IMG/VR virus record: IMGVR_UViG_3300025647_000292 | Coordinates: 1-23,026 of that record | Reading direction: 5' to 3' (one strand) | Source of the DNA: a virus | Length of the DNA: 23,026 bases | Shown: positions 10,813-13,959 of the stretch, piece by piece | Numbering within the stretch: position 1 is the stretch's first letter | How the letters are laid out: each line of letters begins with the position of its first letter | The notes under the pieces: model-generated | What the model was told of the DNA's origin: nothing | Databases searched by the model: none | The model's input: only the letters and a program-made list of their open reading frames with translations | Program-made: the position numbers and the translations under genes

Positions 10813-11157
10813 ATGAAAGAGCAAAGTTGTAAAACTTATTGGGCTCGCATTTATATTGCTGGCGATATAACACACGCTAAAAAGATCATCCGCAAATATG
10901 TGTGGGAAGAAGGATTGTGTGTTACTGTAACACCGCTTGATTACATTTACACAGGTGGCGAAGAAGCAGGTATGATGATTGAACTTATCAACTATCCACG
11001 CTTTCCTACTAAAAGCAGCAAGATTGCAGAAATTGCGGTTGACTTAGGAACAACGCTTATGGAAAAATTGTACCAGCGTTCGTTTAGTGTTATGACACCC
11101 GATGATACTGTGCGTTATACTCGCGGAGAAGAAGTAGAAGCACGAAGAGAAAAGTAA
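10813..11157 (+). CDS. Hypothetical protein, 114 aa
   Basis: MKEQSCKTYWARIYIAGDITHAKKIIRKYVWEEG reads as a strand followed by a helix, then CVTVTPLDYIYTGGEEAGMMIEL strands and a final helix: a ferredoxin-like alpha/beta layout. A similar pattern is seen in small phage proteins of unknown role. It starts 2 bases after the previous stop and its stop overlaps the next start (TAATG), so translation is coupled. Confidence 0.72.
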   Translation: MKEQSCKTYWARIYIAGDITHAKKIIRKYVWEEGLCVTVTPLDYIYTGGEEAGMMIELINYPRFPTKSSKIAEIAVDLGTTLMEKLYQRSFSVMTPDDTVRYTRGEEVEARREK

Positions 11158-11964: not shown

Positions 11965-12055
11965 GCCCCTGTAGCTTAATGGTAAAGCAGTGAGCTTATA
12001 CCTCATAACGACAGATAATCGACTGATCCTGGTTCGAATCCGGGCGGGGGTACCA
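11965..12055 (+). tRNA. tRNA, predicted Ile(UAU), with an unusually long variable arm
   Basis: Acceptor GCCCCTG/CGGGGGT (G-U at 1-72), D stem GCTT/AAGC, anticodon stem GTGAG/CTCAT with loop CTTATAC (anticodon TAT), T arm CCTGG-TTCGAAT-CCGGG, discriminator A and encoded CCA. The variable region (12007-12027) is 21 bases and can pair internally, as in class II tRNAs, whereas normal tRNA-Ile has about 5. Identity is therefore less certain than for the others. Confidence 0.75.
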
Positions 12056-12585: not shown

Positions 12586-12675
12586 CGAGGGATGGCCGAG
12601 AGGCTGAAGGCGCACGCCTGCTAAGTGTGTATACGGGTAACCGTATCGAGGGTTCGAATCCCTCTCCCTCGGCCA
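12586..12675 (+). tRNA. tRNA-Ser(GCU)
   Basis: Class II tRNA with acceptor CGAGGGA/TCCCTCG, anticodon loop CTGCTAA (GCT), a long variable arm (TACGG-GTAA-CCGTA), T loop TTCGAAT, discriminator G and encoded CCA. Confidence 0.95.
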
Positions 12676-12689
12676 ATTTTTACTGACTG

Positions 12690-12799
12690 CTACGCAGACT
12701 GAGCGTACAGGCTTTACTAGTTCTCAGTCTATATCTATGTTGCCCGTCGGCATAGAACGAATTCAAATCTCTTCGTTCCTTTAAGGCTAAACTGCGTGG
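12690..12799 (+). ncRNA. Candidate structured RNA A, cloverleaf-like, within the tRNA cluster
   Basis: No reading frame fits this interval, but it folds well by eye. CTACGCAG (12690-12697) pairs with CTGCGTGG (12792-12799, one G-U) as a closing stem around three hairpins: ACTGAG/CTCAGT (12698-12703/12723-12728), TCTATG/CATAGA (12734-12739/12751-12756, inner TGCC/GGCA), and GAACGAA/TTCGTTC (12755-12761/12772-12778), whose loop starts with the T-loop-like TTCAAAT. Arms two and three share two bases and cannot both be full length. It is bounded by the CCA end of tRNA-Ser at 12675. T4 carries two stable RNAs of unknown role in its tRNA cluster, an analogous position. No family recognised. Confidence 0.45.
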
Positions 12800-12813
12800 A
12801 GATAGGGCGGGCC

Positions 12814-12918
12814 ATTTTAATAAGCACATTAGTCCCTAAGGACAGTCGTTCTTCAAAGACGATGGATTGTATCCTGAATACAGAATAGGAGGACCTTGCC
12901 TAGTGTGCTTATTAAAAT
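12814..12918 (+). ncRNA. Candidate structured RNA B, 19-bp closing stem, abuts tRNA-Asn
   Basis: ATTTTAATAAGCACATTAG (12814-12832) pairs with 12900-12918 over 19 base pairs with a single G-U. The enclosed 67 bases form further hairpins: TCC-CTAA-GGA (12833-12842), GTCGTT/GACGAT (12845-12850/12858-12863) with the seven-base loop CTTCAAA, TGTAT/ATACA (from about 12869), and AGG/CCT (12887-12896). The stem ends at 12918 and tRNA-Asn begins at 12919, so RNase P maturation of the tRNA would cut exactly at the RNA's 3' end. No protein frame is present. This is strong structure with no known family. Confidence 0.6.
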
Positions 12919-12994
<76 letters not shown>

Positions 12995-13074: not shown

Positions 13075-13128
13075 GATTTATACGGAAGAGTGGCAGAGTG
13101 GTTGATTGCATCGGTCTTAAAAACTGTT
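13069..13128 (+). repeat. Direct repeat, left copy (partial tRNA-Ser)
   Basis: These 60 bases recur at 13855-13914 with only three differences (A/G at 13110 and 13119, T/C at 13125); the first 41 bases are identical. The repeat spans the GCTCCA tRNA end, a short spacer and the 5' half of tRNA-Ser. Confidence 0.93.
13084..13128 (+). pseudogene. Truncated 5' half of tRNA-Ser
   Basis: This is the acceptor 5' strand (GGAAGAG), D arm and anticodon arm of a serine tRNA, matching the intact tRNA-Ser(UGA) at 13870 except for three transitions; the anticodon reads TAA instead of TGA. The 3' half is absent: immediately after the anticodon arm come AAGGAG and the ATG at 13142. It cannot make a tRNA. 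Confidence 0.9.
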
Positions 13129-13141
13129 AAGGAGATTAAGA

Positions 13142-13765
13142 ATGACTCCAGTATACTTTTCATACATAGCCGGAGCAGGAGGCAAAAGTTTAATAAATTG
13201 CCTGTATTCTTCAGAGATGGTTTATTTTAATGAGCCATTACCCCAAAAAATACTAGATAGTGTTCCTCCACACGACCACATAAATCCGTGGTGGACTTAT
13301 GAAATACACAACCCACCTATTTGTAAATGCGACGGCCCTGATCCAAGTTCTGAATCATTCGGCAGGACAAGAGATTGGGGATTGTTTGAATATTTAAATA
13401 CAGTAGATAAATATGTTCCGTTTGTAGCACATTATGGGTTTAATATCGAATGTTATACACAGACTATCGGCAATGGTCCTATAATTAAAATCATTCCCGA
13501 TCTCGAATTTATCAACCTAGCGATAGGACTAAAGTGGGATCTACTTAGTAACGGACAGCCTGCTAGTTTATGTTTAAATGAATACAAAAAATGGGAAGAT
13601 AGTTTAGCATCATATTCAGCTGACTTAGTAATTGATCAGTTCAACCCGCTTAGTGATTCGTTTTTTACGCATCTAGCCCAAGTTACCGATTTACTTAATA
13701 TTTCCATAAACAACGATATTACTAAATTGTACATTGAAAAATATCGTAATTATCATTTAGTCTAA
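13142..13765 (+). CDS. Hypothetical protein with P-loop-like start, inserted at tRNA-Ser
   Basis: The 207-aa protein begins MTPVYFSYIAGAGGKSLINC, a strand, Gly-rich GAGGKS turn and helix resembling a degenerate Walker A motif, though the first Gly of GxxxxGKS is missing. Later parts (FVAHYGFNIECYTQ, GPIIKIIPDLEFINLAIGL, HLAQVTDLLNI) fit an alpha/beta nucleotide or sulfotransferase-like fold; this is an impression only. AAGGAG precedes the ATG. The gene lies exactly between a truncated and an intact copy of the same tRNA-Ser, so it arrived with, or caused, a duplication. It may be a cassette using the tRNA as integration point. No nuclease or integrase motif is visible. Confidence 0.7.
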   Translation: MTPVYFSYIAGAGGKSLINCLYSSEMVYFNEPLPQKILDSVPPHDHINPWWTYEIHNPPICKCDGPDPSSESFGRTRDWGLFEYLNTVDKYVPFVAHYGFNIECYTQTIGNGPIIKIIPDLEFINLAIGLKWDLLSNGQPASLCLNEYKKWEDSLASYSADLVIDQFNPLSDSFFTHLAQVTDLLNISINNDITKLYIEKYRNYHLV

Positions 13766-13772
13766 AAAGTCG

Positions 13773-13800
13773 TTGACAATTTCAAATAATCCTGTATAAT
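13773..13800 (+). promoter_or_regulatory. Consensus promoter before the second tRNA-Ser copy
   Basis: TTGACA at 13773-13778, 16-bp spacer and TATAAT at 13795-13800. It restarts transcription for tRNA-Ser(UGA) and the gene at 13976. Confidence 0.87.
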
Positions 13801-13826
13801 GTGCAGCATGAGTTAACTAAGATATT

Positions 13827-13860
13827 GCGGAAGTAACTCAATGGTAGAGTTTCTGCTCCA
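13827..13860 (+). pseudogene. Truncated 5' half of a second tRNA (Gly-like)
   Basis: GCGGAAG, TA, ACTC-AATGGTA-GAGT and TTTCTGC look like the acceptor strand, D arm and 5' anticodon stem of a tRNA, but the next bases are TCCA and spacer. The anticodon loop, T arm and most of the acceptor 3' strand are missing. It differs from tRNA-Gly(UCC) at 13001, so it derives from another tRNA gene, deleted through the shared GCTCCA sequence. Confidence 0.7.
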
Positions 13861-13914
13861 GATTTATACGGAAGAGTGGCAGAGTGGTTGATTGCGTCGG
13901 TCTTGAAAACCGTT
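13855..13914 (+). repeat. Direct repeat, right copy
   Basis: Matches 13069-13128 at 57 of 60 positions, offset 786 bases, running from GCTCCA through the anticodon arm of tRNA-Ser(UGA). Confidence 0.93.
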
Positions 13915-13959
13915 GTACGTGAAAGCGTACCGAGGGTTCGAATCCCTCCTCTTCCTCCA
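13870..13959 (+). tRNA. tRNA-Ser(UGA), intact
   Basis: Class II tRNA with acceptor GGAAGAG/CTCTTCC, anticodon loop CTTGAAA (TGA), variable arm GTACG-TGAAAG-CGTAC, T arm GAGGG-TTCGAAT-CCCTC, encoded CCA. The discriminator is T, whereas serine tRNAs normally have G, as tRNA-Ser(GCU) here does. Confidence 0.94.

Follow-up and report, generated by a model that had tools for sequence, protein, structure and literature searches.

What occupies the 243 bases between the genes for tRNA-Ser (12586-12675) and tRNA-Asn (12919-12994), where no other gene is listed, in a tRNA cluster of a viral genome? The window analysed here is the whole stretch of 23,026 nucleotides (IMG/VR record IMGVR_UViG_3300025647_000292, positions 1 to 23,026), and coordinates without a contig name refer to it. 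An initial annotation had filled this gap with two adjacent non-coding RNAs or decayed, remodelled tRNAs, and had given the first of them, RNA A, a cloverleaf-like fold between 12690 and 12799, with three hairpins closed by an 8-bp stem. Judged by sequence comparison, a conserved RNA is indeed real, although that fold and those ends are wrong. As for the pair of non-coding RNAs, RNA A is sustained by its conservation and by covariation across ten distinct versions, whereas RNA B is only plausible. The two elements are:

12687-12814, plus strand: RNA A, whole conserved element of about 128 nt, delimited by conservation and covariation among ten distinct versions; its 5′ boundary may be off by some bases.
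12815-12918, plus strand: RNA B, separate 104-nt element with an 18-bp terminal stem (fold z -4.74).

RNA A thus runs 15 bases beyond the end first given to it, up to a CCA at 12812-12814. Over the shorter interval, 12690-12799, the nested fold (-30.6 kcal/mol, z -2.76, matched by 1 of 200 shuffles) is moderately better than chance, but over the fuller boundaries, 12676-12814, it is no better than that of shuffled sequence (z -0.63), since what comparison supports is a fold with pseudoknots. Thermodynamic folding alone could therefore not have decided the question.

The tRNA clusters of related phages were more informative. RNA A is kept among them, in ten distinct versions found in viral contigs (the window type counted once and near-copies left out). 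In the relative L004, several of the surrounding tRNAs differ and the tRNA order is changed, though the stretch comprising RNA A and RNA B is 98% identical; the same figure holds for RNA A, against 63-86% for the tRNAs Ser, Gly, Pro and Asn and 97-100% for Gln and Lys. RNA A lies directly 3′ of a tRNA-Pro(UGG) gene in L004, L007, L008, L086, L092 and L098, and a divergent RNA A stands alone, ahead of tRNA-Gly, in L005. A tRNA starts within a few bases after its CCA in L005, L011 and L012, the last of these contigs being a T4-like phage by its gp23 capsid and terminase. Two copies occur away from tRNAs: in L024, about 9 kb on each side of RNA A is free of tRNAs, and the nearest one found in L088 is about 0.7 kb downstream. 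RNA A is therefore not merely a spacer between tRNAs.

The 3′ part of the element is composed of the following features:

12734-12739, plus strand: hairpin H2, 5′ arm TCTATG; five of six pairs with changes on both sides.
12743-12748, plus strand: 3′ pseudoknot PK, 5′ arm CCCGTC, within the H2 loop (12740-12750); 60 of 60 cells paired.
12751-12756, plus strand: hairpin H2, 3′ arm CATAGA; covariation.
12757-12766, plus strand: A-rich linker ACGAATTCAA, which holds the T-loop-like motif; A-richness conserved, unpaired.
12767-12775, plus strand: variable hairpin PT, 5′ arm ATCTCTTCG; of the outer five pairs, three vary with changes on both sides.
12795-12803, plus strand: variable hairpin PT, 3′ arm CGTGGAGAT; covariation.
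12806-12811, plus strand: 3′ pseudoknot PK, 3′ arm GGCGGG; covariation.
12812-12814, plus strand: CCA directly 3′ of PK, in ten of ten versions.

Covariation across these versions shows that the 3′ domain folds into a conserved H-type pseudoknot with the CCA directly after it. CCCGTC, in the 11-base loop of H2, pairs with GGCGGG, and the space between H2 and this second arm is taken by the A-rich linker and then by PT (12767-12803). The PK letters change in concert from one version to another (CCCG/CGGG, GCTG/CAGC, TCCG/CGGA). In two alignments, 90-94% of the cells are paired and 10 pairs change on both sides, a level reached by none of 500 shuffles, and pairing drops to 36-49% when the partners are slid by 1-3 columns. 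A hand-anchored count gave 55 of 60 paired cells for H2, 60 of 60 for PK and 48 of 50 for PT, and for none of the three did any of 2000 shuffles reach so high a value. One of the alignments (A2) carries two N spacers in three sequences, which bring PT into register; the hand-anchored count per helix is independent of these spacers, its arms having been read by hand with one bulged base of L088 omitted.

The way in which the versions were gathered bears on these figures. A flanking protein (10813-11154) was used to bring in near-identical and divergent contigs, and patterns built from shared blocks led to L008 and L011, to L012-L014, to L024, and to L086, L088, L092 and L098. Some of these patterns had GTCGGC, AGGGC or CCA parts, and complementarity at three PK bases was a criterion in picking the last four versions, whereas L004, L005, L007, L008, L010, L011 and L012 came from searches that did not require a CCA. 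Neither the pairing of H2 or PT nor the 5′ pseudoknot described below was used in the selection, though letters within H2 or PT were prescribed by some of the patterns. In bacterial genomes the patterns also gave hits; these, together with L025, L026, L015-L023, L066-L078 and others, look like coding or chance sequences without H2 and PT and were rejected.

Upstream of this domain, the comparison with relatives shows a second H-type pseudoknot:

12691-12694, plus strand: stem S1, 5′ arm TACG, with CTG 12687-12689 prolonging it beyond a bulged C; same arrangement with different letters in relatives.
12696-12703, plus strand: stem S2, 5′ arm AGACTGAG, within the S1 loop; comparison with relatives.
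12704-12707, plus strand: stem S1, 3′ arm CGTA, extended by CAG 12708-12710; comparison with relatives.
12723-12730, plus strand: stem S2, 3′ arm CTCAGTCT; comparison with relatives, where it lies 14-18 nt upstream of GTCGGC.

The same order of S1 and S2 arms, written in other letters and ending 14-18 nt before GTCGGC, occurs in L005, L008, L011, L024, L086, L088, L092 and L098. The summed score of this 5′ pseudoknot, 333, exceeds the highest shuffled value, 230, while for L005, L008, L086 and L092 taken singly the score is reached by 2-7 of 200 shuffles. L012 was excluded by the G-U limit of the script and fits by inspection only, through TAAGTGTA/TACATTTA with GCCATTCC/GGAATGGT. A further 5′ hairpin precedes RNA A in L092, L098 and L086 (TTTACCA/TGGTAAA, TTTACCG/CGGTAAA and TCATCCT/GGGGTGA, respectively), which suggests that the RNA is longer in some phages.

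With both domains in place, the idea of a decayed or remodelled tRNA that keeps a cloverleaf becomes extremely improbable. Its attractions are the location, the CCA end, the TTCAAAT motif and the moderately good nested fold. The letters of the 8-bp outer stem, CTACGCAG with CTGCGTGG (12690-12697 with 12792-12799), are complementary and the hairpins between its arms can be found, yet neither conservation of the stem nor the cloverleaf itself withstands the comparison. L008 retains CTGCGTGG exactly without CTACGCAG, and the best partner available there pairs at 6 of 8 positions. We reject the cloverleaf because this version lacks the 5′ arm and because the same bases form the covarying PT (12795-12803) and clash with S1 (12691-12694). 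TTCAAAT does occur where it had been placed, but not as a closed 7-base T-loop: it is made of linker and the start of PT, and its 3′ part is where the covarying helix 12767-12775/12795-12803 begins. Neither the tRNA covariance model (RF00005) nor ARAGORN gave a match over 12687-12814, and of the cloverleaf features of RF00005 the element has neither a conserved outer stem nor a T-arm with a 7-base T-loop; an encoded, tRNA-like 3′ CCA is present in 10 of 10 versions. Decay also fits poorly with an element that is better conserved than most of the adjoining tRNAs, and whose non-tRNA topology of covarying pseudoknots recurs in divergent phages, two of the copies being away from tRNA clusters.

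A covariance model of H2 and PT, without the pseudoknot (R1), was built from 11 of the 14 carrier sequences. It found one match per contig in 14 of 14 carrier contigs, at 59-85 bits (12728-12815 in the window, with 83.9 bits), a result that for these sequences follows by construction because 11 of them went into the model. The next match scored 17 bits (L111) and was dropped, as it reads as coding. An Rfam search gave no match over RNA A, including the models for GOLLD, ROOL, tmRNA, ribozymes and riboswitches, and blastn searches of a phage genome collection with the window, L005, L024, L012, L092 and L088 returned tRNA and chance matches only. No match to R1 was obtained in 369 genomes of one bacterial class, which is weak evidence of absence because the filters were stricter and the set contained no positive control. 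The literature searched, supplementary files lying outside that search, does not describe RNA A. As far as these sequence searches reach, RNA A is a family absent from Rfam.

The closest known parallels come from phage T4, whose RNAC (species 1 RNA, 139 nt) and RNAD (species 2 RNA, 119 nt) adjoin tRNAs in the phage tRNA cluster, as RNA A does. They are made from the tRNA region, are expressed late and are still described as RNAs of unknown role (PMC3014915, PMC9697503), and every phage line evolved on one host acquired a mutation in rnaD (PMC12685909). RNAC carries a T-arm near its 3′ end, a feature that RNA A lacks. RNAD ends in CCA, like RNA A, and in both of them constant blocks surround a freely replaced hairpin. 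Might RNA A then be a distant homologue of RNAD? Besides its place next to a tRNA, RNAD has a similar length and ends in GCGCACCA; its constant 5′ hairpin block and 3′ block flank the variable hairpin, and CGTCGG and GGCG are in common. With filters off, however, R1 reached no more than 4.7 bits across six T4-like regions, and some T4 relatives do not have the CCA (CACAA in L058, CATCG in L062). Candidate pairings between a loop and the 3′ end before the CCA are present in RNAD, but they are invariant among its relatives. We regard this homology as improbable. In T4 RNAD (L055 1054-1172; relatives L056-L065), the hairpin is swapped among T2, T4 and UPEC01 types between two near-constant blocks, and the UPEC01 form has a GCCTG/CAGGC stem where T4 has CTG/CAG.

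Other phage-encoded RNAs, GOLLD and ROOL, are ornate and pseudoknotted, often lie near tRNA islands and have no known function (PMC12286853). Many GOLLD members exceed 800 nt, against the approximately 128 nt of RNA A.

If RNA A worked in cis, as a processing or spacing signal, a ribozyme or a riboswitch for its own transcript, its location between tRNAs in several phages would be accounted for, as would the copy of L024, which ends about 30 nt upstream of a start codon. Double pseudoknots are, moreover, known in ribozymes and riboswitches. The versions nevertheless have no downstream gene in common, a promoter-like sequence (read by eye) separates RNA A from the next gene in L088, and no ribozyme or riboswitch of Rfam matches the element, so that a role in cis seems to us quite unlikely.

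Our best reading is instead that RNA A represents a new family of phage RNAs, small and stable, which would be cut from tRNA precursors and would act in trans via a 3′ end resembling that of a tRNA. Comparison supports the family well, and its function is what we infer. Where RNA A lies in tRNA arrays, it would be co-transcribed with the tRNAs, and RNase P cutting at the next tRNA, followed by 3′ exonuclease trimming down to the pseudoknot-protected CCA, would free it. Such a release by tRNA-processing enzymes is proposed because RNA A sits between the CCA of one tRNA and the next tRNA or RNA B. Once freed, it may persist as a stable trans-acting RNA, by analogy with T4 RNAC and RNAD; we favor action in trans because no downstream gene is common to the versions and because of the promoter-like sequence before the next gene in L088. 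Taken together, the family and its fold, with action as a stable trans-acting RNA, appear somewhat more probable than otherwise.

How the 3′ end might be used is a more speculative matter. The tRNA-like structures of plant viruses carry a 3′-terminal H-type pseudoknot followed directly by CCA, with a further pseudoknot upstream. RNA A shares the H-type pseudoknot before the CCA and the second pseudoknot upstream, but it has no recognisable T-arm or anticodon arm, and it is an internal transcript segment of a DNA phage, whereas the plant-virus structure is a genome 3′ end. By acceptor mimicry, to us the likeliest mode of action, the compact CCA-ended 3′ domain might imitate the acceptor end of a tRNA and occupy a tRNA-handling protein, be it for processing, for charging or for a host defence that attacks tRNAs, a step that we advance as a guess with well under even odds. 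Against it, RNA A lacks a T-arm, and the base before the CCA is paired, leaving no unpaired discriminator base. The full proposal, in which a widespread family of CCA-ended acceptor mimics would act during infection, either as a decoy or as an inhibitor, on a host enzyme that handles tRNAs or a defence that attacks them, is in our estimation unlikely. A stable regulatory or ribosome-associated RNA without any tRNA mimicry, whose CCA only lets tRNA-processing enzymes finish and protect the 3′ end, is a serious possibility, though it falls short of an even chance. The absence of T-arm and anticodon arm, the failure of tRNA and tmRNA models to match the element and the copies outside tRNA clusters all agree with it. 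It accounts less well for the CCA kept without a following tRNA in L024, L088, L092 and L098, though CCA was part of the search pattern for these four.

Ever since T4, small RNAs have been recognised in the tRNA clusters of phages, and to these the RNA A family adds a defined covarying fold with near-exact boundaries. With fold, boundaries and a searchable model in hand, its distribution, partners and function are now testable. Unannotated gaps in phage tRNA arrays can conceal RNAs that are missed by nested-fold scans.

RNA B is 98% conserved alongside RNA A in L004, L007 and L010, does not follow RNA A in L005 or L011, and is replaced by a longer, different stretch in L008; a weak Rfam match to SAM-III (E 1.4) falls within it. 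Further along the window, a truncated tRNA-Ser copy (13078-13130; 95% over 60 nt) precedes an ORF (13142-13765), downstream of which come a tRNA-Gly-like remnant and an intact tRNA-Ser(TGA) (13827-13959). The arrangement over 13078-13959 resembles what an insertion or a duplication within the tRNA cluster would leave. Downstream of RNA A, two related phage contigs (L086, minus strand, 537-611; L141, 1828-1902) carry CUA-anticodon tRNAs (called Pyl), which are possible amber suppressors. Three different phage contigs (the window, 11965-12055; L012, 2656-2747; L142, 9217-9308) carry a tRNA-Ile(UAU) that measures 91-92 nt and has a long variable region.
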